Origin: Anaerolineaceae bacterium
Lineage (GTDB): Bacteria; Chloroflexota; Anaerolineae; Anaerolineales; Anaerolineaceae
Reading direction: 5' to 3'
DNA length: 64,000 nucleotides
Assembly: GCA_002702705.1 (NCBI GenBank)
Contig: PABH01000038.1
Coordinates: 1-64,000, forward strand
Shown here one piece after another: positions 1,234 to 14,117 of the stretch (its first letter is position 1; each line of letters opens with the position of its first letter). A program made the translations under genes and the position numbers. Under the pieces are notes generated by a model that was given only the letters and a program-made list of their open reading frames with translations, made no database searches and was not told the origin of the DNA.

Positions 1234-1899
1234 ATGATAGAAAAATTATCGTTATTTCCCCTCAATACGGTATTGTTTCCGGGCATGCCGATCAATTTGC
1301 ATATTTTTGAAAGCCGCTATAAATTAATGATTCAGCGAGCTTTGTTGACCGACAACATCTTTGGCGTGACATTAATCCGCCAGGGTACGGAAGCACTTGG
1401 GGCATTAGCCGAACCATTTTATATTGGTACTACGGCGAAAATTGTCGATGTTGAACGCCTGGATAATGGACACATGAACATTACCGCGATTGGGGAAGAA
1501 CGCTTTTTAATTAAGGAATTGGACCGTGAATCAGCAGTTTATTTAACTGGTTTTGTGGAAAAGTATCCACTTGAACTACACCGTCCGCTGGATATTTACC
1601 GCCGTCTGCGGATGCTGCGCAGCCACGTGCAGTATTATTTACGTACACTTGATAGTTTGGAAGAGGTGCAGATCAATTTGGAATCGCTTGATCTGCCAGA
1701 GGATCCGATGGTGTTTTTGTTCCTGGCTTCTTCCCTGCTGCAAATTCCAGCGACAGAAAAACAGCCTATCCTTTCCGCCCCGACCGCCTTGGATTTTTGT
1801 ACCATGGTGGAACGTCTTTACCGGCGTGAAAATGCCGTCCTTCGAAATTTAAAACATGTCAGTGCCGAAGCCGCCCAGAATCTGGCGATGTTAAACTAA
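1234..1899 (+). CDS. LON peptidase substrate-binding domain protein
   Basis: A 221-residue protein made almost entirely of a Lon N-terminal (LAN/PUA-like) domain. The opening LSLFPLNTVLFPGMPINLHI and the following IFESRYKLMI are diagnostic of this family, and there is no AAA or Ser-Lys protease domain. Such stand-alone proteins are thought to bind unfolded substrates or act as adaptors, but their precise role is unknown. The gene stands alone and converges on the replication-like gene cluster, from which it is separated by a long bidirectional hairpin. The ATG start fits the family's usual N-terminus. Confidence 0.85.
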   Translation: MIEKLSLFPLNTVLFPGMPINLHIFESRYKLMIQRALLTDNIFGVTLIRQGTEALGALAEPFYIGTTAKIVDVERLDNGHMNITAIGEERFLIKELDRESAVYLTGFVEKYPLELHRPLDIYRRLRMLRSHVQYYLRTLDSLEEVQINLESLDLPEDPMVFLFLASSLLQIPATEKQPILSAPTALDFCTMVERLYRRENAVLRNLKHVSAEAAQNLAMLN

Positions 1900-1956: not shown

Positions 1957-2850
1957 TTAATCGTCCCAGTCCTCATGTTCGTCTTCAAACTCGGGGCTGA
2001 ACCAGGTGCCGTTGTCATATTCGCCACTCATTTCCTGGTCCTGCGGGGTAAGCGGATCATCCATGCGTACTTGCAAACGGATGCCTGCTGTTCTTACGCC
2101 GTTGGGTGTCATCACCCGGCGAACAGTATAGCGGATGAAATAACGTTTGATGAGGTCATTCTTGAGTATCGTTTTAAGGGTTCTCACGCTGACATGGGCA
2201 CGGTCAGCCAGATCTTTCATTTCAGTTTCCACAATATTCCGGGTTTCCCCTGTCTCCGGATTCCAATAACACATCATCCGGGCTGCCTTAATGGCAGCAT
2301 AGGCGGATAAACCGATCAGAGGCACCCACTGGTTCCACATGTAATTGGTCTGAAACATACCACGTTCCGGTTGAATAATCAACGAACGTTGGTCACCATA
2401 GGCCTTTTGCAACATGGCCTTGCGAGTACCTTTTTTCCGAAACGTTTTCTCTAATTCCTGATCCGCTTCTTCATCATTAACGGATTGGCGGGGAGGGGTG
2501 GTAGATTTGGATATTTTTTTGGGTGGAGCGCTGCTTTCGGATCGCAGCATCTGCACGGTTTGATCGGAATAAAATCCGTTGGATACCTCTACTGATAACA
2601 AAATATCACGCTGATACAGGCCGGATAACATTTTGCTAATACGCGCATCCAGGCGGCTTTGCACCCATTTGCGAGCGTAATCATTCACGGCGGCCAGGCG
2701 GAATATTTGTTCGTCTTCATTCCGGAACCCCAAGGGTTTTAAAGGACGTACCCAGGCATCAAAATCAGCACGCGACATTTCGGCGCGTAACTGACCCAGA
2801 ACCATTTCCCAGGCTTCCTCATGACTTGGAATGTTGACGGTTGTTACCAT
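1957..2850 (-). CDS. DnaA N-terminal-domain protein, putative replication initiator
   Basis: A 297-residue protein. Residues about 10-95 resemble DnaA domain I: WEMVLGQLRAEMSRADFDAW, then a region ending in NDYARKWVQSRL, the usual helicase/DiaA-interaction fold. There is no AAA+ or domain IV HTH of true DnaA. The middle (residues about 165-255) resembles a helical winged-HTH replication protein (NQWVPLIGLSAYAAIKAARM, then DLADRAHVSVRTLKTILKND). The C-terminus is very acidic. It is the last gene of a four-gene leftward operon. I infer a plasmid-type initiator or helicase-loading factor; a regulator is the alternative. Confidence 0.6.
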   Translation of the reverse strand: MVTTVNIPSHEEAWEMVLGQLRAEMSRADFDAWVRPLKPLGFRNEDEQIFRLAAVNDYARKWVQSRLDARISKMLSGLYQRDILLSVEVSNGFYSDQTVQMLRSESSAPPKKISKSTTPPRQSVNDEEADQELEKTFRKKGTRKAMLQKAYGDQRSLIIQPERGMFQTNYMWNQWVPLIGLSAYAAIKAARMMCYWNPETGETRNIVETEMKDLADRAHVSVRTLKTILKNDLIKRYFIRYTVRRVMTPNGVRTAGIRLQVRMDDPLTPQDQEMSGEYDNGTWFSPEFEDEHEDWDD

Positions 2851-2857
2851 AACGACA

Positions 2858-2880
2858 TCCTTCTGATCATTTTAATCAGA
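2858..2880 (-). promoter_or_regulatory. Hairpin overlapping the ribosome site of the DnaA-N-domain gene
   Basis: TCTGAT (2862-2867) and ATCAGA (2875-2880) can pair between the stop of the upstream gene and the start at 2850. The Shine-Dalgarno AGAAGGAT on the minus strand lies in one arm, so translation could depend on ribosomes arriving from the upstream gene. Confidence 0.3.
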
Positions 2881-2884
2881 GGGC

Positions 2885-3730
2885 TTAGTTTCCTTTGGGT
2901 TGATCTGAATCCGGCGGTTTTGATTGGGAGAGGGCTTTTACCTGCCGGTTTAAAAACTCAATAACTTTTGGAAAATCATCCTGGCGAATATCTTCCGAGC
3001 GGCTGACTCCCGTCAATCGGGTGACATCCATATAGATACCAGGGTAAGGTTTGGCGATCCCACGTTCCTGCATAAGGGAACCCAGGGTTGCAATGGTTTG
3101 GCGGAGCTGACCCATTTGTTCGGGGGTAAGTCGGGCTTTTGGACCAGCGACTTTTTCCAACAAGGTCACTTGTTGGCGTAAATCTCCAAATGCATCTCGA
3201 ATTTGCTGGACTTTTTCATCATGTGCACGACGAAGTTCAGCCAGCTCCGCCTCTACTTTTTTTTCAAGGTTCTCTTCATAAGTTTCTTGTTCGGCTACCA
3301 TCCGGGCAACCGATTCCCGCAAAAATTGAATTTCTCCTCGCTCGCTAATACCGAAATGTTCAGCCAAAACGGTATGGGCTTCATCCAAAAAAGCTTTTAA
3401 TAACAATCGGGTTTCTTGTTCTTGCACGCGGGAAAGATCCACTCCCGTCAAGAATAAGGGCACAGCGGAAGCCATCAAACACAGGGTAGCTTGTTTTCCG
3501 CCCGCGGTCTGCATTTGGATGGTGGCCGTGTAGGGTTCAAAATAACCCTGTTGGCGCTGCAAACGGCGGCGTTGGGCACGTCCATCCAACCCAAAGGCTT
3601 CGCATAAAGAACGCACGGATACATATCCGTTGCCATCCGCTAAATCCGCGGTAATGATCTCCTTATCCTGGAATTTGAGGGTTCGTTCATGAACAGGGAT
3701 GAACAAGTTTTCTTCATTTTCATTGGTCAT
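2885..3730 (-). CDS. P22 antirepressor-like protein (P22_AR_N domain)
   Basis: A 281-residue protein with a clear GAGGAA ribosome site. Residues about 15-110 match phage antirepressor N-termini: a beta strand, then VSVRSLCEAFGLDGRAQRRR and a basic segment. Residues about 150-205 form a coiled coil rich in Glu/Arg/Gln. The end (YPGIYMDVTRLTGV) resembles the ORF6C-type tail of phage proteins. Phage members relieve repression; here the gene sits inside a replication/partition operon, so a role in copy control or plasmid maintenance is inferred. It lies 34 bases before the DnaA-N-domain gene. Confidence 0.7.
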   Translation of the reverse strand: MTNENEENLFIPVHERTLKFQDKEIITADLADGNGYVSVRSLCEAFGLDGRAQRRRLQRQQGYFEPYTATIQMQTAGGKQATLCLMASAVPLFLTGVDLSRVQEQETRLLLKAFLDEAHTVLAEHFGISERGEIQFLRESVARMVAEQETYEENLEKKVEAELAELRRAHDEKVQQIRDAFGDLRQQVTLLEKVAGPKARLTPEQMGQLRQTIATLGSLMQERGIAKPYPGIYMDVTRLTGVSRSEDIRQDDFPKVIEFLNRQVKALSQSKPPDSDQPKGN

Positions 3731-3751
3731 GGGGGTTCCTCGGTATATGGT

Positions 3752-3784
3752 GGGGAAGAATTTTTGATTTAGTTTTTTTCTTCC
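3752..3784. repeat. Short inverted repeat between operon genes
   Basis: GGAAGAA (3752-3758) and TTCTTCC (3778-3784) flank a T-rich loop between the 109-residue gene and the antirepressor-like gene. It may be a weak processing or attenuation hairpin. Confidence 0.3.
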
Positions 3785-3814
3785 GATAATATTGTTAATT
3801 ATTGGTAGAAAAAA

Positions 3815-4144
3815 TTATTCACCTTCAATTAACATCGAAACTAACTCGTCCAGATTGCGAGCTTTCTCACCCGGAATCAAAGACAGGCGAGCTGTGCACA
3901 CCCGAGAAAGGATGCCAACCGTCTCACCGATAGAGATCTTACGATTTAAGAGTTTACTTAAGCGCTGCTGCCATTTTTGCAGTTCGCTCATTTCGCCCTT
4001 GGAAAGGGTCATTCCAACTTTGTGGCGCGGAACCAATGAAGGCGGGCGTCCTGCCGGCCGGGTTTGGGGATCGGAAGTGATCCGGCGGGCTTGATATAAC
4101 TGTACCCAGGCATTGTTCGCGCCGCCCTGAGAATCACGCTTCAT
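3815..4144 (-). CDS. Small basic protein of the replication/partition operon
   Basis: A 109-residue protein of unknown family. The N-terminal half is basic and proline-rich (ITSDPQTRPAGRPPSLVPRH), the rest is two or three predicted helices (KGEMSELQKWQQRLSKLLN). Its start codon overlaps the end of the upstream ATPase gene by 11 bases, which argues for a real, translationally coupled gene. By position it could be an accessory DNA-binding or ATPase-partner protein, but nothing in the sequence proves a function. Confidence 0.5.
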   Translation of the reverse strand: MKRDSQGGANNAWVQLYQARRITSDPQTRPAGRPPSLVPRHKVGMTLSKGEMSELQKWQQRLSKLLNRKISIGETVGILSRVCTARLSLIPGEKARNLDELVSMLIEGE

Positions 4145-4964
4145 AAGCTACCACCTCTCTAACAATATCTAAATTAATCGTTGAAACATCATTTTGCAGC
4201 ACCAGGTCTGTGGAAAGCGCACATAGGCGGATAATCTCACGCGGCACACCTTCGGACCGTTCATACAATAATTCAAATGCATCATCGTCGATAAATGGCT
4301 CACTGCGACCAGCTACATTCAAGCGGAATAACACCATTTGTAAGGAGCTTGATAAGGTTAATGGCGGCAGTGCCAAACGAACAAATACACGAGCGTTGAC
4401 CGCTTTGTTCGTTTCAAACAAAGTGTTCATTTCCCGTTGACCAAATGCCAAGATTTGCACAACTTTGGCATCGTAATCAAAATTATATAAACGGTGCAGC
4501 ACTTCCAAGGCTTCGGCATTCATCATCTGGGCATCATCCAAGATAATGACCACATTACTGCCCTTGGTATACATTTCCGCCATCAGTTTTTCCAGGGTTT
4601 CCATCTGTCGTTGAAAACTGCGCTGGGTGGGTAGATTTAAAGAAACGGATATTTGACGAGCTGCATCCATGGCCGATTTAAATGCGGCCGTGTGGATATA
4701 ACTGATCATTAAATTGTCATCAGCTGCGTAAAGATCATAAATCCTCCGCGCCAGTGAACTTTTTCCCATTCCCATATCACCGGAAAATAATGCCAAACCC
4801 CGGCGGCGGGAAACGACACCCTGAGCCTGCCGGTATACGGCTAAATGCTCCGGGCCTAAATACAGGTAACGCGGATCAGCGGATAATTTAAATGGATCCT
4901 CACGCAGGTTTAATCGTTCTAACCGCGCAACGCGCCATTCTTCATCATTCAAAGAATTGAACAT
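4134..4964 (-). CDS. ExeA/TniB-like AAA ATPase
   Basis: A 276-residue ATPase. The opening (LNLREDPFKLSADPRYLYLG) is typical of ExeA/GspA and TniB/MuB-like ATPases. Walker A is GDMGMGKSS at about residues 62-70, and Walker B is VVIILDDAQ at about 138-146. Later regions (VFVRLALPPL, RSEGVPREIIRLC) match the sensor and lid of AAA_22 proteins. Relatives act in transposon target choice, in secretion or with phage-type replication proteins. It leads the leftward operon and is divergent from parA, so I favour a DNA-handling role. Confidence 0.75.
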   Translation of the reverse strand: MFNSLNDEEWRVARLERLNLREDPFKLSADPRYLYLGPEHLAVYRQAQGVVSRRRGLALFSGDMGMGKSSLARRIYDLYAADDNLMISYIHTAAFKSAMDAARQISVSLNLPTQRSFQRQMETLEKLMAEMYTKGSNVVIILDDAQMMNAEALEVLHRLYNFDYDAKVVQILAFGQREMNTLFETNKAVNARVFVRLALPPLTLSSSLQMVLFRLNVAGRSEPFIDDDAFELLYERSEGVPREIIRLCALSTDLVLQNDVSTINLDIVREVVAYEA

Positions 4965-5189
4965 GGTGCCATTCCTCCAAGATTTCTTTGCCTATTATTG
5001 CACGAATTATCCTTAATTACAATAGAATTAGCGTAATTATAGTATAAAGTAGCAGTTTTTAAGCTAATTATGTTGATTTTCCCCTGTATATCTGCTAATA
5101 TTGTATAAAATTGACAAATTTATGCTTAAGAAGAAGGATTTTCCAGCTATTGTCTTTATTTTAGCAAAAATCCGAACAAAAGAGGCAGT
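4965..5189. other. AT-rich divergent intergenic region
   Basis: About 225 bases separate the leftward replication-like operon from parA. They are very AT-rich, with repeated TAATTA words and a TTGACA at 5111-5116. They must hold the promoters of both operons and could include an origin, but I saw no DnaA box (TTATNCACA) or clear iterons. Confidence 0.4.
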
Positions 5190-6026
5190 ATGGCAACCAC
5201 AATTACGATTGCAAATGAAAAAGGCGGTGTAGGCAAAACAACCACCACCGTTAATTTAGCCGCCGGATTAGCCATTCAATTGGCAGAAACGGCTGGACCA
5301 TCAGGACGTGTATTGTTGGTCGATATGGATCCGCAAGGACACGCATTGTTAGCCGCAGCATATGGAACTCATGATGTGGCTCCAGAACAATCACTGGCCG
5401 CTGTTTTAATGGAAACACCACCCCCATCCATTCAACGAATGGTACGCCAAGGGGATCATCACCTCAATTTATACGTGCTGCCATCCAACAGGAGTGCGAT
5501 GGTTGAAGCTGCCCGGGTTTTACCAACCATGATGGCAAATGAAACCCGGCTGATGCATGCCTTACAAGCAGTGCAAAATCAATTTGCCTATATCATTATC
5601 GATACCCCACCCAACACAGGTGATCTGCTGGTGAACGCCCTGGTCGCGGCGGATCATCTGATTATCCCGGTTGAAACAAGTTATCTGGGTGTTTCGGGAT
5701 TACGCGAATTACAAAATACAATTGAACAAGTTCGTTTACATTTTAAACCCCAGTTAAACATCCTTGGATATCTGCCTACTTTAGTGGAAGAACAACGATC
5801 TGAAGTGCGAGAAATTTTGGATCAGCTTCGCCAGCGTTATCCAAAGCAGATGTTAAACCCAATCCACAAATCATCCGACCTGGCTTATGCCCACTCTAGT
5901 CACATGGATGTTTTTTCATATCGTCCCCCTCGCCAACGCAGTGGTGGACAACTTGCGTCTAGTTCTCGCGCCACCCAGGAATATGGCGAATTGGTTTTGC
6001 ATGTGCTCCAGCAGACCAGCCGCTGA
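5190..6026 (+). CDS. parA: ParA partition ATPase
   Basis: A 278-residue type Ia-like ParA without an N-terminal HTH. The deviant Walker A is NEKGGVGKTTTT at residues 9-20, the A' motif is LLVDMDPQGH and Walker B is IIIDTPP. ParA dimers bind DNA with ATP and position ParB-bound centromeres. GAGGC lies 7 bases before the ATG. parB follows after 41 bases, so the two form an operon. It differs clearly from the second ParA at 8138, with an insertion near residue 30 (AETAGPSG), so it is not a recent duplicate. Confidence 0.95.
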   Translation: MATTITIANEKGGVGKTTTTVNLAAGLAIQLAETAGPSGRVLLVDMDPQGHALLAAAYGTHDVAPEQSLAAVLMETPPPSIQRMVRQGDHHLNLYVLPSNRSAMVEAARVLPTMMANETRLMHALQAVQNQFAYIIIDTPPNTGDLLVNALVAADHLIIPVETSYLGVSGLRELQNTIEQVRLHFKPQLNILGYLPTLVEEQRSEVREILDQLRQRYPKQMLNPIHKSSDLAYAHSSHMDVFSYRPPRQRSGGQLASSSRATQEYGELVLHVLQQTSR

Positions 6027-6067
6027 CCCTTTAACCCCACGCGCGGATCCGTTCATCAGGAGGAATC

Positions 6068-7237
6068 ATGGCTCCCAGCAAACGAAAACGCTTTAATGCG
6101 TTTGAAGATTTTCCAGCCAGCGAAAATAAACAAAATCAATCTCCCTTAGCCGGAACACCAACTTTAAAGGAAAGTGCAACCACGGTAGAGCGAATTGAGC
6201 GGCTCAAACCAAGCGAAATGATGCCTGACCGTTTTCAACCGCGTCGTTTGCTGCCGACCTTTATCCGTGTGCCTTTTTTTAATGGAGAAATAAATTGTTA
6301 CCAGGCAGCCCAGCGCTGGCTGCATTTTGCCAATCAAGACAGTGGTGTCCGGCAGGAAGTTGACCGGTTACTACATCTGGGGTCTTCATTTGAAGATCAC
6401 GGTCAGATCAAACCGATCACCGGATCCTGGCAAAATGATGCGGATGGACAGTTCTTTTTTCTGATCGAAACCGGGGAACGCCGGTTTTGGGCCGCCTGTT
6501 TGCAAACAGCCCAAAGTGCATCCAAACACCACAATGGAGAACTCGATTTTAACAAACTAGAAGAACCGGTATTAAGGGTAGAAGTGGTCCAAAACCCCAC
6601 GCGACAGCGCCAGGTATTGGAGAACCGGCATGCCGAAGCACCCTCCGCGGTGGAACAAGCCTGTGAAGTAGCCGCTCTGATTCTCGCTGATTTGGATATC
6701 CACCCCGACGAAACCATTGAGGACGATTTTGATTATTTTCGCCAAGCGAACGATAAACGTATGCCTGCCGGATTATGGGACCGCATTATCCCGATCATGA
6801 ATCTGACCCGCCCGCGCATGGTGCAGCTGATCAAATTATTTGATTACCCTAATCATCTTTTAGAAATTGCAGATCGTTTCCGTCTTTCCGAGCGCGTTTT
6901 AAGAGAAATCCGCAGCCGTCCACAGCAGGAATGGGAACAACTCATTCATCAAAGTATCGCCAACAGCCTCACTTCTGAGGATATCGCTGAACAAATCGTT
7001 GAACCGGAACAACCAAAAAAACCTCAATCTCCAAAACAAGCCACTACCCCCGAAACGAATGCATACCGCGGTTTGCGTAAATTTACGCGGGTCTTTAAAG
7101 ACATGAACAAACTGGACCAATCCCAGGTACTGGATTATCTGGCGGATGAAATCACCATCAGCGGGCAAAGTCAACAAGTTCTGGAACTGCTGGATGAACT
7201 CAGCCAACTTATCAAAGCCCGCCATTCACGACGATAA
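6068..7237 (+). CDS. parB: ParB-like centromere-binding protein
   Basis: A 389-residue protein with an AGGAGGA ribosome site. It carries the ParB CTP-binding patch GERRFWAA at about residues 136-143 and an equivalent of the ENxQR motif (ENRHAEAPSAVEQA, 185-198). These are followed by a helical DNA-binding region (MNLTRPRMVQLIKLFDYP) and a linker to a C-terminal helix. The N-terminal domain is longer than in chromosomal ParB and carries an insertion (about residues 62-105), as in plasmid homologues. It should bind a parS site and slide as a CTP clamp; candidate sites lie directly downstream. Confidence 0.88.
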   Translation: MAPSKRKRFNAFEDFPASENKQNQSPLAGTPTLKESATTVERIERLKPSEMMPDRFQPRRLLPTFIRVPFFNGEINCYQAAQRWLHFANQDSGVRQEVDRLLHLGSSFEDHGQIKPITGSWQNDADGQFFFLIETGERRFWAACLQTAQSASKHHNGELDFNKLEEPVLRVEVVQNPTRQRQVLENRHAEAPSAVEQACEVAALILADLDIHPDETIEDDFDYFRQANDKRMPAGLWDRIIPIMNLTRPRMVQLIKLFDYPNHLLEIADRFRLSERVLREIRSRPQQEWEQLIHQSIANSLTSEDIAEQIVEPEQPKKPQSPKQATTPETNAYRGLRKFTRVFKDMNKLDQSQVLDYLADEITISGQSQQVLELLDELSQLIKARHSRR

Positions 7238-7246
7238 TCTGATTAC

Positions 7247-7280
7247 AAAAAAGCCGTTGGAAAACACCAGCGGCTTTTTT
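7247..7280 (+). terminator. Rho-independent terminator of parAB
   Basis: The stem AAGCCGTTGG / CCAGCGGCTT with a 6-base loop is flanked by A and T runs, starting just after the parB stop. Confidence 0.88.
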
Positions 7281-7290
7281 CTTTAAAAGT

Positions 7291-7304
7291 GTAACCGTGG
7301 TTAC
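7291..7304. promoter_or_regulatory. Candidate parS site 1
   Basis: The palindrome GTAACCGTGGTTAC (arms GTAACC/GGTTAC) is preceded by AAAAGT and lies immediately after the parB terminator. The same motif recurs at 7408 and 9287, all next to partition genes. Confidence 0.6.
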
Positions 7305-7407
7305 GAATCTTATACAAAAAAGATTACTGATGACAAAGCCTGGAGAGGTTATTTGTTTTTCTTTCTGCTCCACCTATATATGTTTTTGATACTTCAGTCC
7401 TTAAAGT

Positions 7408-7421
7408 GTAACCACGGTTAC
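7408..7421. promoter_or_regulatory. Candidate parS site 2
   Basis: GTAACCACGGTTAC is the reverse complement of site 1, 104 bases away from it. The preceding bases TTAAAGT resemble those before site 1. Confidence 0.6.
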
Positions 7422-7992
7422 GAAACCTTTCGGCAAAAACTTGGTCAACAGAGGGCAATAATTGTTATATTTCATTACCCCTTATGCTCTTACTTGAGTT
7501 AACTTTGTCGTTTATTAATTCTCAAACCATTTTTATTTTTAAGTTCTACTCATAAGCAATTTATTTCATTTACCAGACCCCTTCTTGATAAACGGAATCA
7601 CATTCTTAGCGAACAATGAGTTTTTAATTAAAAAACCTTCAGTACGCTTCGACAGGTTCATTCTGCTAATTTTAGCTAAATCACACCTCCATATGAGCAC
7701 AAATTTATCCGCTTCACTCAAATCGCTTTCTCAAATACCTCTATTTAAAGAGATCAATTTTTAGGAGAAAAATTTCTCCAGGAAACCAATCATAAAACCC
7801 AAAAGTTAAGGAATTTCCAAAACAAATTATTTTAAATAACCCATCAAAACAAATCACTTTTGTTTGGTTTTTTTACACACATCCTTAAAGTTGCGTTTTC
7901 AAAAAAGCAATGATTTACCAGCCTTTTAATTTTACCCACACCCTAACCCATTTTTGGTAATAAATCCGCTCAAAATGCCTTATTTCAAACTT
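7422..7992. other. AT-rich noncoding region
   Basis: I see no gene here. The stretch is AT-rich and includes CTTCGACAGGTTCA at 7647-7660, which resembles a common dispersed extragenic repeat; a similar fragment is present near 21970. An origin or accessory centromere function is possible but unsupported. Confidence 0.4.
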
Positions 7993-8036
7993 AGGGTATA
8001 CCCTGAATATTCATAAGGGTATACCCTAAGGGTATC
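7993..8036. promoter_or_regulatory. Tandem operator palindromes before the second parA
   Basis: AGGGTATACCCT occurs as a perfect 12-bp palindrome at 7993-8004 and 8016-8027 (23 bases apart), followed by a half site AAGGGTATCC at about 8028-8036. They lie directly upstream of a consensus promoter and are probably bound by the RHH protein encoded at 8901 (autorepression) or act as its centromere. Confidence 0.65.
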
Positions 8037-8039
8037 CGC

Positions 8040-8069
8040 TTGACATTTTACTCTTTTTAAGGCTATAAT
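8040..8069 (+). promoter_or_regulatory. Consensus sigma-70-type promoter of the second partition module
   Basis: A perfect -35 TTGACA (8040-8045) and a perfect -10 TATAAT (8064-8069) are separated by 18 bases. Operators abut the upstream side, and an AAGGGTCACCCCTT inverted repeat covers the predicted start. Confidence 0.8.
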
Positions 8070-8137
8070 TCAAGGGTCACCCCTTAGACAAGTTATTTTC
8101 ATTTTTTGGGGAAGGCAAGATATGGAGAAATCATTAT

Positions 8138-8908
8138 ATGTTCATTTTTGCATTGGCTAATCAAAAAGGCGGAGTCGGAAAAACCACCACCGCTGTCACC
8201 CTAGCATCAGGGTTTGCCCAAGCCGGATTAAAAACACTGCTGGTGGATTTGGACCCGCAGGGTCATGTTGCGTTTAGTTTTGGACAGGAAAAAACCGCGG
8301 GCCTTTACCGCTGGCTTGTAATGGAAGAACCAATAAAAGACGTCGTCCAAACCGTTCGGCCCAACCTGGATATTTTGCCAAGTGATAAAAATACGGAAAA
8401 AGTAAAACGTCACATCACGCTGATGGATTTTCGGGAATCGTTGTTAAAAGACCACTTTAAACGACTGAAATACGATGTCGTCTTTTTAGATCTGGCTCCT
8501 TCATTAGATGTTCTTCATATTAATGGACTCATCACCAGCGATTGGGTTATTATCCCCACCCGTCTGGATGCAATGGCCGTTGATGGTGTAAAAGAAATCT
8601 TATTAACGATGGGTGAAATCGGACAAAAAGGCCACCAATTTACAGGGTACTCAATCCTCCCCACATTCTTTGACCGCACTACCCGTGAAACCATCACCCA
8701 ATTCCAGGAAATTGTTCAAACCTTTGGAGAGAGAGTGCTGCCTCCTATCCCGCAGGATACACGAGTGCGCGAAGCACCAGCGTTCGGGCAAACGTTATGG
8801 GAATACACACCGAACAGCCCAGCAATCACAGGTTATCAAAATGGAAAATCTAAAGCAGGTGGATATCAACAAATTTGTGAGCGTTTGATGGAGGTAGTCT
8901 ATGGCTGA
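8138..8908 (+). CDS. Second ParA-family partition ATPase
   Basis: A 256-residue ParA/Soj-like ATPase. The deviant Walker A is NQKGGVGKTTTA at residues 8-19, the A' motif is LLVDLDPQGH and Walker B is DVVFLDLAPS. GGAG lies 10 bases before the ATG. The 3' end overlaps the next gene by 8 bases, the usual arrangement of a ParA with a small ribbon-helix-helix centromere binder (type Ib). It sits only 900 bases from parAB, so two partition modules are stacked in one locus. Confidence 0.9.
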   Translation: MFIFALANQKGGVGKTTTAVTLASGFAQAGLKTLLVDLDPQGHVAFSFGQEKTAGLYRWLVMEEPIKDVVQTVRPNLDILPSDKNTEKVKRHITLMDFRESLLKDHFKRLKYDVVFLDLAPSLDVLHINGLITSDWVIIPTRLDAMAVDGVKEILLTMGEIGQKGHQFTGYSILPTFFDRTTRETITQFQEIVQTFGERVLPPIPQDTRVREAPAFGQTLWEYTPNSPAITGYQNGKSKAGGYQQICERLMEVVYG

Positions 8909-9290
8909 ACGAAAACGGCGAAATATTTTAGACCCGGCCGTAGCGGATCTGTTAGCCGGGATGGAAGAAAAACAAGCGGAAGCGCGCCTGCCCAAACGGG
9001 AACGTGAAAAAATCGCACGGGAACGCGCAAAAATGCGTGCTCGTAAAGATCACCGGGTTACCTATGACCTCCCTCCGGAGTTAAAAAAACAAGTGGGTGA
9101 TCTGGCAGAACAAATGGGTGTAGCCGCCAGTCAGATTGCCACCTACGCTCTCATTCAATTTTTGCAGTCCTATCAAAACGGGGAGGTGGATTTATCAAAG
9201 TTCAAAGTCCCATCCCGCAGTCCACGTTATGAATGGAAACTGGTTTTTCCAAAAAGTCTGTTGGAGTCAGTAAAAAAGAAAAAAGTGTAA
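8901..9290 (+). CDS. Ribbon-helix-helix partner of the second ParA (ParG/CopG-like)
   Basis: A 129-residue basic protein. Residues 1-50 are charged and probably unfolded (RLPKREREKIARERAKMR), as in the ParG tail that stimulates ParA. Residues about 53-95 look like a ribbon-helix-helix: the strand HRVTYDLPPELKKQVGDLA, then VAASQIATYALIQFL. Such proteins bind the centromere and repress their own operon. The gene overlaps the upstream parA by 8 bases. Its last codons run into candidate parS site 3. Confidence 0.75.
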   Translation: MAERKRRNILDPAVADLLAGMEEKQAEARLPKREREKIARERAKMRARKDHRVTYDLPPELKKQVGDLAEQMGVAASQIATYALIQFLQSYQNGEVDLSKFKVPSRSPRYEWKLVFPKSLLESVKKKKV

Positions 9291-9304
9291 CCGTGGTTAC
9301 ACTT
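9283..9304. promoter_or_regulatory. Candidate parS site 3 (extended palindrome)
   Basis: The core GTAACCGTGGTTAC at 9287-9300 is the same as sites 1 and 2. Here the arms extend to 10 bp (AAGTGTAACC / GGTTACACTT). It overlaps the stop codon of the RHH gene and the end of the convergent MOSC gene. Confidence 0.6.
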
Positions 9305-10878: not shown

Positions 10879-11532
10879 TTGTTTACTAACCTGATCAACA
10901 CTTTTGTGTTAGCCTGGCAATATACACTTTCCCATGCGGATGAATTCATCTTAGCTTTACGTGAACATTTATTTCTGGTAACCATTTCAATGATTGTAGG
11001 CATTTTGGTTTGTGTACCGCTTGGTATTTGGACAGCCCGTTCGAAAAGAATTGCAACCGCTGCCCTCAATACAGTGAACACCCTGCGCGTTATTCCCAGT
11101 CTTGCCATTTTATTTTTGTTAATTCCCTACCTCGGTTTGAGCTCTACTTCCGCGTTAATTGCCCTGATCGTTTTGGCTTTGCCTCCCATTTTAATTAATA
11201 CCGATGCAGCTTTCCGCGGTATTAGTCCAGCAATTTTGGAGGCTGCTCGGGGTATGGGGATGAAGCCGCAACAAATTTTGTTTCAAATCGAATTTCCCCT
11301 GGCTGCACCGGTCATTTTAACCGGGATTCGGATCGCAGCTGTTGAAGTAATTGCTAGTGCAACCCTTGCCGCTTTTGTCGGCAGTGGGGGATTGGGTATT
11401 TATATCACGCGGGGTTTTGCTCTGTATGATTATTCCATCCTGTTCGTGGGCGCTGTACCGGTGGCGTTGTTAACGTTATTTTCTGAAGGTATCATCAGCG
11501 GCGCTCAAAAATTGATTCAATATCCGCAGTAA
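10879..11532 (+). CDS. Osmoprotectant ABC transporter permease (OpuC/OsmF type), first subunit
   Basis: A 217-residue membrane protein with about five to six helices and the BPD_transp_1 EAA-like loop (EAARGMGMKPQQILFQIEFP). It starts at a TTG with AGAGGG eight bases upstream. Family members form the channel for glycine betaine, carnitine or choline uptake. It begins a four-gene operon (permease, binding protein, ATPase, permease), the classic OpuC/OpuB set. Confidence 0.88.
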   Translation: MFTNLINTFVLAWQYTLSHADEFILALREHLFLVTISMIVGILVCVPLGIWTARSKRIATAALNTVNTLRVIPSLAILFLLIPYLGLSSTSALIALIVLALPPILINTDAAFRGISPAILEAARGMGMKPQQILFQIEFPLAAPVILTGIRIAAVEVIASATLAAFVGSGGLGIYITRGFALYDYSILFVGAVPVALLTLFSEGIISGAQKLIQYPQ

Positions 11533-11547
11533 CTTGTAGGAGGAACC

Positions 11548-12447
11548 ATGAAACGTAAGACTATCTGGATGGTCGTATCACTTTTGATATTGACTGCCGT
11601 ATTGGTAAGCGCCTGTAGTGGCGGTAGTAAAAAAACACCCATCAAAGTGGGTTCAAAAGATTTTACCGAACAATTTATCATCGGTGAAATGTACGCTTTG
11701 GTATTGGAAGACGCCGGTTTTGATGTCGAAAGAAAATTAAATCTTGGTGGCACACCCGTTGCACAGGCGGCGATGGAATCAGGAGAGATTGATTTATATC
11801 CTGAATATACGGGAACAGGCTTGTTGACAGTTTTAAAATTGCCAGTAAACAGTGATCGAGAAGCGGTTTATCAAAGTGTATATGATGGTTATCTCGAAAA
11901 GTATAACTTTGTCTGGTTAAATCCTTCTCCAATGAACAATACCCAAGCCATTGCCATGAAACGCGACAAAGCAGAGCAGATGGGGATTGTTACTATGTCA
12001 GATATGGCGGCAAAAGCCAGTGAGCTCGTTATGGTAGGACCACCAGAATTCCAGGAACGGGAAGATGGATTACCCGGCATCAAGGCGGTATATGGAGATT
12101 TCACTTTAAAGGAATATAAATCAGTGGATCCGGGTTTACGATATCAAGCCCTTGTGGAAGATCAGGCTGATATTACGGTTGCTTTTGGTACGGATGGGGA
12201 AATCAGCGCCTATGACTTGGTGCTGCTGCAAGATGATAAAAACATGTTCCCACCCTATCAAGTTGCACCTGTCGTACGGAAAGAAATAATTGATGCCTTC
12301 CCGGAGGTGGAAACAGTCTTAAACACCCTTTCCGCATTGTTGACCGATGGTGTCATGCAAGAGTTAAATTACGAAGTAAGTGGAAAGCAGCGTGAACCAT
12401 CTGAAGTTGCCCGTGAATTTTTGGTACAGGCTGGGTTGATTAAGTAA
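11548..12447 (+). CDS. Osmoprotectant-binding lipoprotein (OpuAC/OsmF-like)
   Basis: A 299-residue lipoprotein with a signal peptide and lipobox LVSAC, so Cys 23 would be lipidated and anchored outside the membrane. The OpuAC-type domain begins KVGSKDFTEQFIIGEMYA and contains the family signature IDLYPEYTGTGL. Aromatic residues near these motifs would form the cage for quaternary ammonium compounds. An AGGAGG site precedes the ATG by 6 bases, and the gene follows the first permease by 15 bases. Confidence 0.9.
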   Translation: MKRKTIWMVVSLLILTAVLVSACSGGSKKTPIKVGSKDFTEQFIIGEMYALVLEDAGFDVERKLNLGGTPVAQAAMESGEIDLYPEYTGTGLLTVLKLPVNSDREAVYQSVYDGYLEKYNFVWLNPSPMNNTQAIAMKRDKAEQMGIVTMSDMAAKASELVMVGPPEFQEREDGLPGIKAVYGDFTLKEYKSVDPGLRYQALVEDQADITVAFGTDGEISAYDLVLLQDDKNMFPPYQVAPVVRKEIIDAFPEVETVLNTLSALLTDGVMQELNYEVSGKQREPSEVAREFLVQAGLIK

Positions 12448-12484
12448 GCGTGTTTCGGTAACTTTTTTCAGATTGATAATCCAT

Positions 12485-12522
12485 CCCCATCCCTTTTCTC
12501 CATTTATTGAGCAGGGATGGGG
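12485..12522 (+). terminator. Intra-operon hairpin
   Basis: CCCCATCCC (12485-12493) pairs perfectly with GGGATGGGG (12514-12522) between the binding-protein and ATPase genes. There is no U run, so it is more likely an RNA-stabilising or processing stem that raises binding-protein levels than a full terminator. Confidence 0.5.
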
Positions 12523-12543
12523 ACCTACTAGAAAGTTAAAATT

Positions 12544-13485
12544 ATGCAGGGCATCGTTTTTGACAAAGTTTCCAAACAATATAAAAATGCAGCCGCTCCT
12601 GCTGTAAATCAGGTTAGTTTTACCGTTGATCCTGGGAGTCTGGTTGTGTTATTGGGCCCATCCGGTTGCGGTAAAACTACCTTGTTAAAGATGGTCAATC
12701 GATTGTTTGAGCCTAGCGAAGGCACTATATATTTGGATGGGGTAAATATACGTGATATGGAAGTAACAGCCTTGCGTCGCCAGATTGGATATGTCATCCA
12801 ACAGGTCGGTTTATTTCCTCATATGACGGTTGCTGAAAACATCGCATTGATCCCCTCCCTCTTAAAATGGGAGAAACCGCGGATTCAATCCAGAGTGGAT
12901 GAATTATTAACCCTCATTCACCTTGATCCACTTGAATACCGGGATCGATACCCGGCTCAGCTCTCCGGTGGCCAGCAGCAGCGGGTCGGTTTGGCGCGTG
13001 CTTTAGCGGGAGATCCTAACGTCTTATTAATGGATGAACCTTTTGGAGCGATTGATGCGATCACCCGCGCTTCGTTACAGCAAGAGGTAATGCAACTTCA
13101 AAATCAACTCCAAAAGACAGTTTTATTTGTCACACATGACGTCGAAGAAGCACTGCTCTTGGCAGATAAGATTGCCATTCTGAAAGAAGGCGCTCTGGTC
13201 CAATATGATACTCCTTGGAATCTGTTGACCAATCCGGCTGATGAATTTGTGCGTGAATTAATTAATGCTGACGACCGGATACGCCAGTTGACTGTCTTAA
13301 AAGCAAAAGATGTCATGATTAAGCCCAGCCATCATGAGCAGGTACTCAAAAAAGTGCAGCAGCGTACAGATTTGCGTCAGGTGCTTTCATTATTATTATC
13401 ATCTCCCAATGCGGTTGTTGCGGTGACCGACTCAAGTGGAAAAGTCGTGGGTGAAATCAGTTTACAGCAGCTGGTTTTGGAATAA
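12544..13485 (+). CDS. Osmoprotectant ABC transporter ATPase
   Basis: A 313-residue ABC ATPase with Walker A GPSGCGKTT (about residues 38-46), signature LSGGQQQRV and Walker B VLLMDEP. The C-terminal extension (about residues 240-313) resembles a shortened CBS region (DVMIKPSHHEQVLKKV, then VVAVTDSSGKVVGEI). OpuCA/OpuBA proteins carry two CBS domains that sense ionic strength or c-di-AMP; this one has at most one to one and a half, so its regulation may differ. The last permease gene follows after 11 bases. Confidence 0.9.
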   Translation: MQGIVFDKVSKQYKNAAAPAVNQVSFTVDPGSLVVLLGPSGCGKTTLLKMVNRLFEPSEGTIYLDGVNIRDMEVTALRRQIGYVIQQVGLFPHMTVAENIALIPSLLKWEKPRIQSRVDELLTLIHLDPLEYRDRYPAQLSGGQQQRVGLARALAGDPNVLLMDEPFGAIDAITRASLQQEVMQLQNQLQKTVLFVTHDVEEALLLADKIAILKEGALVQYDTPWNLLTNPADEFVRELINADDRIRQLTVLKAKDVMIKPSHHEQVLKKVQQRTDLRQVLSLLLSSPNAVVAVTDSSGKVVGEISLQQLVLE

Positions 13486-13496
13486 AAAGAGGCCTA

Positions 13497-14117
13497 ATGC
13501 CGTATTTTCTGCGCTATCCGGATATAATCTTCAAACTCACCCTACAACACCTCTATCTGGTGCTGATTGCTCTTTCAATTGCCCTTATTATTGCGCTTCC
13601 ACTGGCATGGTTTCTCAATCGGCATAAACGCCTATCTAATATTGTGATGGGCTTTTTTGGTATTGTGTACACAATACCCAGTATTGCTTTGATGATTATC
13701 CTCATTCCCTTTTTGGGATTAAATGAAAAATCTGTGATTGTGGCTTTGGTGTTATACAGCCAGGTTATTTTATTACGCAATATCTTAACGGGATTGGATG
13801 GGATACCTAAAACAACCATTGAGGCTGCGAACGGCATGGGTCTTTCCACTTGGCAAATCGCATGGAAGATTCAACTGCCACTAGCTTTACCGGTTATTTT
13901 GGCCGGAGTGCGTATTTCTGCAGTTGTGGTGGTTGCCATCGCAACCATTGGGGCGAAATTTGGGGCGGGGGGATTGGGTACGCTGTTGTTTGATGGCATT
14001 GCTCAGGCAGGAAGAACCGATAAAATCTGGACCGGGGCGATTATTGTTGGTTTGGTTGCCTTTTCCCTCAGCCGCCTGGCGTTATACTTAGAAAAACGGT
14101 TTTCTTATCCGGTTTAA
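13497..14117 (+). CDS. Osmoprotectant ABC transporter permease, second subunit
   Basis: A 206-residue permease with five to six helices and the EAANGMGLSTWQIAWKIQLP coupling loop. It is a paralogue of the permease at 10879 and completes a heterodimeric channel. It is the final gene of the operon; its end overlaps the convergent diguanylate cyclase gene by 4 bases, so transcripts from the two strands must meet here. Confidence 0.88.
   Translation: MPYFLRYPDIIFKLTLQHLYLVLIALSIALIIALPLAWFLNRHKRLSNIVMGFFGIVYTIPSIALMIILIPFLGLNEKSVIVALVLYSQVILLRNILTGLDGIPKTTIEAANGMGLSTWQIAWKIQLPLALPVILAGVRISAVVVVAIATIGAKFGAGGLGTLLFDGIAQAGRTDKIWTGAIIVGLVAFSLSRLALYLEKRFSYPV

Follow-up and report, generated by a model that had tools for sequence, protein, structure and literature searches.

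The chromid origins known so far were assigned in a 2018 review to the iteron or repABC type (PMC6090056). The chromids of the Roseobacter clade and of Paracoccus are large secondary replicons whose initiator is DnaA-like and whose partition region is characteristic (PMC6209633), and DALP, a plasmid-borne DnaA_N protein of Rickettsia, was in 2014 the sole protein common to all sequenced Rickettsia plasmids (PMC4316617). The initiator of plasmid pSK41 has a C-terminal domain that resembles DnaD and binds primase (PMC5703833). Finally, the chromid-like replicons of Ktedonobacteria reported in 2026 measure 1.6-3.5 Mb and carry parA near the skew extremum, and Pfam revealed in them neither a Rep-family initiator nor parB (PMC13289182); all papers are cited here from part of their text. 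Here we analyze positions 1-64,000 of contig PABH01000038.1 from an Anaerolineaceae bacterium (GCA_002702705.1), and in particular a cassette at 1957-9300 in which leftward genes encoding a candidate initiator (Rep, with a DnaA_N domain), an antirepressor-like protein, a 109-aa (amino acid) protein and an ATPase face a rightward parA-parB pair, followed by 900 bp of AT-rich DNA, a second parA (parA2) and a ribbon-helix-helix (RHH)-like gene. Very probably, this locus serves a large secondary replicon (plasmid or chromid) of Anaerolineaceae, a group of sediment bacteria, as its origin and segregation module. No paper describing it was found by title or abstract start in the literature searches.

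Genomic location and conservation of the cassette

The window, i.e. the whole stretch of 64,000 bases, is the beginning of a 98,657-bp contig (C40) in a genome of 5.89 Mb and 74 contigs (G000, the own genome), and seven further genomes of the genus (G301 to G307) were compared with it. In Leptolinea sp. HRD-7, the cassette is carried by a circular 212,187-bp plasmid (AP024711.1), its proteins being 69% (ATPase), 53% (small protein), 46% (Rep), 67% (ParA2) and 54% (RHH-like protein) identical to ours, and this plasmid is the only one of 72,556 plasmid records with a relative of Rep. Two genes encoding 351- and 449-aa proteins, without significant Pfam matches, occupy the parAB place on it, and relatives of both occur at another locus, L180. 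The HRD-7 plasmid also bears a type I-C CRISPR-Cas set (L035, 27309-35022) near its replication region. In Longilinea arvoryzae, the cassette lies on C2 (293,070 bp) next to a C1 of 4,145,241 bp; all tRNA genes among the matches listed are on C1, and ARAGORN detected 0 on C2. Likewise, no tRNA gene was found on the HRD-7 plasmid or on ~919 kb of cassette contigs from the 8 genus genomes, in a scan done in pieces that left out a 590-base piece, contig C254 of G306 and contig C136 of G304. The own genome (5.885 Mb) has 47 tRNA genes, 0 of them on C40.

The regions around the cassette were compared with those around chromosomal dnaA by counting open reading frames (ORFs) with relatives at ≥45% identity and ≥60% coverage, the cassette being examined in G301, G302, G303 and G307 (G304, G305 and G306 were not included). 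For the dnaA control, 41, 38 and 38 of 99 ORFs had relatives in the corresponding 100-kb stretches of G301, G302 and G307; apart from some inversions, their order was largely the same. For the cassette region, the counts were 15, 12, 13 and 13 of 83 ORFs in G301, G302, G303 and G307, and 7, 4, 4 and 5 of these ORFs lie outside the cassette and its Lon-domain neighbor (within 50 kb). The cassette flanks are little conserved, unlike the chromosomal control. The original prediction held that the neighboring genes look chromosomal, which may be correct for their functions but does not describe flanks that behave unlike a chromosome in this test. An osmoprotectant-type ABC transporter operon (OpuC-like, by eye) stands beside the cassette at 10879-14117 of the window, with no close relatives in the compared stretches. 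A DnaA-sized frame of 458 aa with DnaA_N is found on a different contig of the own genome, C16. As to chromid criteria, the GC content is 0.415 versus 0.426 for the chromosomal stretch, and the cassette is present in 8/8 genomes of the genus.

The gene order is identical in these 8 genomes, own included, the cassette being split by contig ends in G304 and G306 with the remainder on C136 and C254, respectively. A full-length relative of Rep, 49-56% identical, occurs in 7/7 of the other genomes (8/8 with the own). All the genes named in the original prediction are intact ORFs at their positions, and neither an order restricted to one strain nor pseudogenes in relatives, the two outcomes that were to speak for a decayed plasmid, was observed. 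The antirepressor, which had been counted as a member of the set, is present at 2885-3730 but was rejected as a core part since it occurs in 2/8 genus genomes and 12/39 wider loci. Conversely, a PF02190 gene that had gone unnamed (1234-1899, + strand) is a constant neighbor of the set in the genus (8/8 genomes).

At E≤1e-40, the ATPase was found in 20 of 301 genomes of the order, 5 from the genus, 10 from the rest of the family and 5 from other families. Rep adjoins it at 11 of the 15 loci outside the genus (as a 693-aa form in G345), and parA-parB is present at 10 of these 11. In G436, the set is divergent and otherwise arranged (ATPase 39%, small protein 38%, parA 33% and parB 32% identical, with a 720-aa Rep-like frame), G455 has a long, weakly similar Rep, and no Rep was seen on the 5.5- and 10.4-kb contigs of G421 and G513. 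When GTDB genomes were scanned with the ATPase alignment as query, 39 loci emerged, including Longilinea arvoryzae, Ornatilinea apprima and Leptolinea tardivitalis, and a contig scan with Rep alone gave no matches; both the order scan and the 39-locus scan share genomes, so their counts are not additive. Judged by title, 38 of the 39 loci belong to Chloroflexota, Candidatus Aquidulcis being counted in as a presumed member, and the relatives of the own-genome locus are Chloroflexota. The exception, L157, is a 3.2-kb contig binned as Verrucomicrobia, probably misbinned, with an ATPase 79% identical. Besides the ATPase used as query (39), the 39 loci contain the small protein (36), Rep (36), parA (32), parB (29), the RHH-like gene (27), parA2 (22) and the Lon-domain gene (13, not always adjacent). 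The ATPase is at least 69% identical at 37 loci, and 36 of these have both the small protein and Rep, the exception (L177) being cut at the ATPase; the distant ATPases of L186 and L187 have neither. Both partition modules are present at 18/39 loci. Three loci, all from Leptolinea (L179, L180 and L181), keep parA2-RHH and miss a parAB of this type, and at least 6 (L155, L156, L170, L171, L175 and L185) have parAB without a recognized parA2 in the examined stretch, 4 of them with an RHH-like match. Thus, either partition module may be absent from a locus that keeps the trio of Rep, small protein and ATPase.

The candidate initiator and the co-encoded ATPase

The features of the locus, in window coordinates, are as follows.

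1234..1899, + strand: Lon substrate-binding-domain protein, 221 aa (PF02190, E 1.8e-24)
1957..2850, - strand: candidate replication initiator Rep, with DnaA domain I, a disordered linker and a winged helix (PF11638, E 2.1e-11)
2885..3730, - strand: P22-antirepressor-like protein, optional insertion (P22_AR_N, PF10547, E 1.5e-16)
3815..4144, - strand: small conserved protein, 109 aa (no family matches)
4134..4964, - strand: AAA+ ATPase of Orc/Cdc6-TnsC-MuB fold, 276 aa (AAA_22, E 5e-16)
4965..5189: AT-rich divergent promoter region with GCTAATTA/CGTAATTA boxes, candidate operator and/or Rep-binding (origin) region
5190..6026, + strand: ParA1, Soj-like ATPase, 278 aa (PF13614, E 5.6e-41)
6068..7237, + strand: divergent ParB with GERRFWA and ENRH boxes (TIGR00180, E 6.6e-4; no Pfam match)
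7238..8137: AT-rich (67%) intergenic region, alternative origin candidate, near the raw GC-skew minimum of C40
7291..7304: palindrome GTAACCNNGGTTAC, candidate parS copy 1
7408..7421: palindrome GTAACCNNGGTTAC, candidate parS copy 2
7990..8090: AGGGT/ACCCT half-sites around a sigma-70-like promoter (by eye), candidate RHH operator/centromere
8138..8908, + strand: ParA2, second ParA, 256 aa (PF13614, E 5e-40)
8901..9290, + strand: RHH-like partner of ParA2 (Arc-like phrog_582, E 0.0042, a weak match)
9287..9300: palindrome GTAACCNNGGTTAC, candidate parS copy 3, at the end of the RHH gene

A profile built from 25 Rep relatives matches DnaA domain I structures (4tps, E 3e-10), and PF11638 covers Rep residues 11-76, while TIGR00362 scores 33 bits versus a cut-off of 343.9. 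Of the domains I, III (AAA+) and IV that a full DnaA unites in one chain, Rep has domain I only. In the AlphaFold model (mean pLDDT 75.2, pTM 0.47), the domains are predicted with confidence and the linker is not. Residues 6-90 of the model resemble DnaA domain I (4tps_B, Z 13.5, root-mean-square deviation 2.5 over 82), and residues 165-278 appear winged-helix-like, with 4pt7 (Z 7.4) and 4pql (7.3) as top rows and 5kbj at Z 6.7. Two of these three are titled initiator or Rep structures, and we take all three to be of RepA_N type. A kinship of Rep with RepA_N is at most a possibility because general winged helices also score Z 6-7; Rep has no Pfam match to RepA_N, and its structural Z of 7.4 is under the trust level of the tool. 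When residues are mapped through the 2e0g alignment, Rep relatives retain the counterparts of W6 (25/25), W25 (24/25), N44 (23/25), F46 (aromatic Y/F, 25/25) and W50 (20/25) of E. coli DnaA. Such conserved domain I residues serve dimerization and the binding of DnaB and DiaA, as stated in the part of the source cited (PMC5448010). As in a plasmid-borne initiator joining DnaA_N to another part, Rep combines PF11638 with a modeled winged helix and has a relative on the HRD-7 plasmid.

Other arrangements of these domains were observed. In Chloroflexota L013, L021 and L025, the same winged helix comes first and a DnaA_N-like part last, which is a swapped domain order, and proteins encoded on contigs C71 and C65 of the own genome (L146 and L147) have DnaA_N at their C-terminus. 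It appears that domain I is a mobile module for recruiting helicase. The own genome also contains two paralogous loci, on C46 at ~76.2 kb and on C61 at ~55.8 kb (L144 and L145), where ParA is followed by 231/234-aa and 83/84-aa proteins. They encode 721/726-aa DnaA_N Reps that are 25-26% identical to the Rep of the ZRK35 plasmid described below, and are probably further replicons or integrative elements.

The ATPase is the most conserved member of the set (88-90% identical in the genus). Its 26-sequence model reaches a pLDDT of 89.5 and a pTM of 0.83, the means of the five models being 89.5, 87.1, 68.8, 67.8 and 62.8. Among the families listed in the fold search, the model matches TnsC (Z 21.5), Cdc6 (21.1), ORC (21.0) and MuB (20.0), which are effectively tied; by sequence, Cdc6 (1fnn, E 2.9e-4) alone reaches E≤0.001 in PDB. 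An Orc1/Cdc6 protein unites AAA+ and a C-terminal winged helix in one chain; here, the protein has 276 aa, and the matches span the AAA+ part only. The ATPase is a candidate helicase loader or initiator motor. The small protein (72-78% identical in the genus) has a W(V/L)QLY motif, a GRP(P) motif, AT-hook-like by our reading, and a basic C-terminal part; no match was obtained in the Pfam, PHROGs or PDB profile searches. It is probably a DNA-binding partner. As for the Lon substrate-binding-domain protein (PF02190), our guess is that it could regulate or act as an adaptor for proteolysis of the initiator.

Partition modules, candidate sites and GC skew

GERRxRA-type and ENxxR-type boxes are motifs of the ParB N-domain. 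The divergent ParB has both, T135-G-E-R-R139, W141, A142 and E185-N186 being invariant in 19 sequences of the family, and its profile matches Spo0J (E 1.9e-4), Noc (E 0.0024) and ParB (E 0.0093) in PDB. Pfam detects this ParB in 3/19 members and misses 16/19 (E≤0.01). The own genome contains three GTAACCNNGGTTAC sites, at C40 7291, 7408 and 9287, all in the cassette, and position 9300, where the original prediction ended the locus, coincides with the last base of the third copy. Of the 18 such sites counted over the 8 genus genomes, 17 are in cassettes (3 of them on C136 of G304 and C254 of G306), the remaining one being at G305:C14. A site after the RHH gene is also present in G301, G302, G303, G305, G306 and G307, and none was seen there in G304. 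Among the 39 loci, GTAACCNNGGTTAC occurs in 21/29 with parB, 3 of the 8 misses being cut inside parB, and in 0/10 without parB, at least 5 of these 10 being short contigs; it is absent from the HRD-7 plasmid. The palindrome, which tracks parB in these loci, is a likely parS.

The second module has different sites. The 200 bp before parA2 contain 7 AGGGT/ACCCT half-sites in the own genome versus a shuffle mean of 0.79 and a maximum of 5 (500 shuffles), and the counts over the 8 genus genomes are 7, 5, 6, 5, 5, 4, 5 and 3 versus shuffle means of 0.26-0.79, those of G307 and G304 equaling the shuffle maximum. By comparison, 0-1 half-sites were counted before parA1 in 5 genomes checked. The parA2 and RHH-like genes overlap by 8 bases. 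The 256-aa ParA2, the overlapping gene and the AGGGT repeats fit type Ib partition, the RHH assignment coming from weak matches (E 0.19 to CopG-family PDB entries, not significant). The locus is not of repABC type, since Rep and parAB are divergent and no RepC match was found.

Two AT-rich regions are origin candidates, and the exact origin could be at either 4965-5189 or 7238-8137. The former is 70% AT, and its alignment columns are on average 70% identical across the 8 genus genomes. GCTAATTA occurs in 17 copies in 14/32 loci versus 0.8 in shuffles, and a k-mer enrichment retrieved promoter-like elements and GCTAATTA boxes, in which operators and Rep sites are not separable. No cluster of DnaA boxes was detected, with 0-2 matches to a relaxed 9-mer pattern per cassette.

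The cumulative GC skew is V-shaped in both HRD-7 and Longilinea. That of the HRD-7 plasmid has its minimum at 191,076, inside the cassette (190,113-197,861), and its maximum at 79,039, nearly opposite. For Longilinea, the raw minimum is at 218,855, the cassette at 203,035-209,506 and the maximum at 74,800, about half-way round. The raw minimum is inside the cassette in HRD-7, G301 and G000, in the cassette at the contig end in G304 and G306, which are short contigs, and 3.8 kb off the cassette in G307. The skew range of G302 does not exceed that of shuffled sequences (p 0.5). C40 is a weak skew test because only 2 kb of it lies left of the cassette. In the stretches containing dnaA (G000:C16 1-100000 and 100-kb stretches of G302:C19, G307:C19 and G301:C28), the cumulative minimum is at or near the stretch ends and not at dnaA; therefore the main chromosomal origin may lie away from dnaA.

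Proposed mechanism, alternative explanations and known systems

Since Rep has no AAA+ domain, the ATPase has no winged helix and both are co-encoded, a split initiator is suggested; within the secondary-replicon reading, we give this mechanism about as much credence as doubt. The C-terminal winged helix of Rep would bind origin DNA, and its DnaA domain I would recruit the host replicative helicase DnaB, as DnaA domain I does. The Orc/Cdc6/TnsC-fold ATPase, together with the small protein, would supply an ATP-dependent step, either strand opening or helicase loading. The ATPase could then replace the work of DnaA's own AAA+ domain, and the initiator would in effect be a DnaA divided over two proteins that brings a DNA-binding domain of its own. 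For segregation, the GTAACCNNGGTTAC sites that follow parB and the RHH gene may be the target of ParA1 and the divergent ParB. The AGGGT repeats before parA2 may be that of ParA2 and the RHH-like protein, the latter probably repressing its own promoter as well.

Several observations weigh against reading the locus as the origin of a secondary replicon with its own initiator. The cassette sits at the end of C40, and this contig is no proof of a separate molecule in the own genome; the ends of Longilinea C2 do not overlap, so its circularity is unsupported. The Longilinea skew minimum is off the cassette by 9 kb (raw) or 17 kb (detrended), and the skew of G305 does not support the cassette, raw or detrended. 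The raw minima of G302 and G303 are away from the cassette (in it or 1.2 kb off once detrended), and detrending shifts the minimum away in G000 and G301, although it means little for incomplete contigs. In the GC-skew check put forward in the original prediction, the minimum was at or near the locus in several contigs but not in all. A direct-repeat search of the cassette gave no classical iteron array, only short GCTAATTA boxes in the 225-bp divergent region. The palindrome pattern reversed occurs 12 times versus 18 in the genus, and only the placement of GTAACCNNGGTTAC is telling because the total count is similar; moreover, GTAACCNNGGTTAC is absent from ZRK35 (24.7 kb) and from the G290 and G374 stretches despite related, more distant ParBs. 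For Rep, the pTM is 0.47, the winged helix resembles those of plasmid initiators only moderately (Z 7.4, where the tool warns under 8), and the position of DnaA E21 varies (D in 10/25, E in 0/25). In an even phylum sample of 301 genomes, a full-length Rep occurs in the own genome only, and in one of 400, the ATPase (E≤1e-25) occurs in 8, the 7 non-own ones all distant; ParB relatives occur in 4/400 (3 beside the own). The close form is rare in the phylum, and the system is not phylum-wide. Nine distant ATPase places (E 6e-26 to 2e-48, 7 genomes), several on short contigs, have no Rep beside 8 of them, the ATPase frame of G644 (L247) being unrecovered and left out of this check. As distant relatives stand without Rep, the ATPase fold is not tied to replication.

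An integrated plasmid, either decaying within the chromosome or kept there as a genomic island, would account for the contig lacking proof of separateness or circularity and for a skew that does not switch at the cassette in G305. We consider it improbable: the genes are intact and conserved in 8/8 genomes, no conserved chromosomal neighborhood surrounds them, tRNA genes were not found, and the cassette is on a separate molecule in HRD-7 and on a separate scaffold in Longilinea. The word "integrated" in the original prediction is not supported, no sign of integration having been found, yet the 98.7-kb C40 does not prove a free molecule in the own genome. Its readings as a plasmid or chromid core and as a conserved replication and segregation locus are supported by the order kept in the genus and in further genera, by the circular HRD-7 plasmid, plasmids being among the records it proposed to search, by the 293-kb Longilinea scaffold, by the skew minimum of several contigs, by the missing tRNA genes and by the fluid flanks. 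Presence throughout the genus and a Spo0J-related ParB could also point to a conserved chromosomal locus, for instance a second segregation region close to the origin of the main chromosome. This is very improbable and was rejected, given the DnaA-sized frame on C16, the plasmid location in HRD-7 and flanks that are fluid where the chromosomal control is largely collinear; in addition, outside the genus the locus is sporadic (20/301 genomes of the order at E≤1e-40). The possibility of a transposon, phage or integrative element module has equally little in its favor. It draws on the TnsC/MuB fold and on PHROG matches to a "DNA transposition protein" (E 8e-16) and an antirepressor (E 6e-16). However, a pattern-based scan through viral contigs ended without a confirmed relative, the antirepressor is optional, and no transposase or integrase was found in the 10 scanned proteins, a co-encoded transposase being what defines the TniB/TnsC/MuB assignment; a phage or transposon module is largely refuted.

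A different reading of the roles leaves the replicon itself in place. Rep could be a DNA-binding regulator without helicase loading, host DnaA would take part in initiation, and the ATPase would be an accessory of copy control or partition. TnsC/MuB-type ATPases act on DNA in transposition, relatives of our ATPase occur away from Rep genes, and the ZRK35 plasmid has a long Rep without recognized DnaA_N, all of which agree with such roles. On the other hand, the Rep-small protein-ATPase trio is kept without this parAB in L179, L180 and L181, the surface residues of domain I are conserved and no cluster of DnaA-box-like 9-mers is present. We regard this reading as less likely than not. Returning to the split initiator, the locus might represent a third class of secondary-replicon origin beside the iteron and repABC types, with a two-protein initiator made of a DnaA domain I-winged-helix Rep and an Orc/Cdc6-like motor, scattered in Chloroflexota as Rep-AAA facing parA-parB and possibly the hidden initiator and partition system of the chromid-like replicons of the phylum; we advance this only tentatively. 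If true, a split DnaA-like initiator would make it possible to study the recruitment of the helicase separately from its ATP-driven loading.

The layout is shared by plas-ZRK from Chloroflexota bacterium ZRK35 (CP069395.1, 179,736 bp), in which a 739-aa Rep-like protein and a weakly matching AAA_22 protein (E 0.0058) face parA-parB. Its annotated ParB is 35.5% identical over 63% to the ParB here, but its Rep has no recognized DnaA_N, and neither this Rep nor the AAA protein shows significant pairwise BLAST similarity to ours; no other relative of the ZRK35 Rep was found in the plasmid records. G290 and G374, of the same family, also share the layout. Their ParBs match our profile (E 1e-85 and 2e-81), as do their ATPases (9e-8 and 9e-10), and their Reps share 28% identity with the ZRK Rep and match the Rep here weakly in the winged helix (E 3e-5 and 9e-5). 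G240 has parA-parB only in the examined stretch. With G290 and G374 bridging the two, the plan of Rep-AAA facing parAB seems to be older in Chloroflexota than the DnaA_N form, which would be one of its branches. The Ktedonobacteria replicons are likewise secondary replicons of Chloroflexota, set beside the cassette by description from the part of the paper cited, and the locus may bear, as a possible candidate, on their missing initiator and parB. Because Pfam misses this ParB and Rep may pass for a DnaA fragment, profiles of the cassette could test such chromid-like replicons directly.

RepA_N plasmids such as pSK41 have a winged-helix initiator, which the winged-helix-like part of Rep resembles at a structural Z of 6.7-7.4, but the partner domain is DnaD-like there and DnaA domain I here. 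Archaeal Orc1/Cdc6 and TnsC/MuB share the fold of the ATPase (Z 19-21.5); here, the winged helix is on the separate Rep and not on the ATPase. The Roseobacter and Paracoccus DnaA-like replicons, likened by description, come without mention of an AAA+ partner in the portion of the article drawn on (PMC6209633). DALP, also set beside Rep by description, shares a plasmid-borne DnaA_N domain; as far as the cited portion goes, this domain is C-terminal and the rest of the protein extremely variable (PMC4316617), whereas in Rep it is N-terminal, the winged helix is conserved and an AAA+ ATPase is encoded alongside. Plasmid initiators with a DnaA domain are known from earlier work, and the N-terminal domain I-winged-helix Rep with its AAA+ partner appears to be a new form of them.

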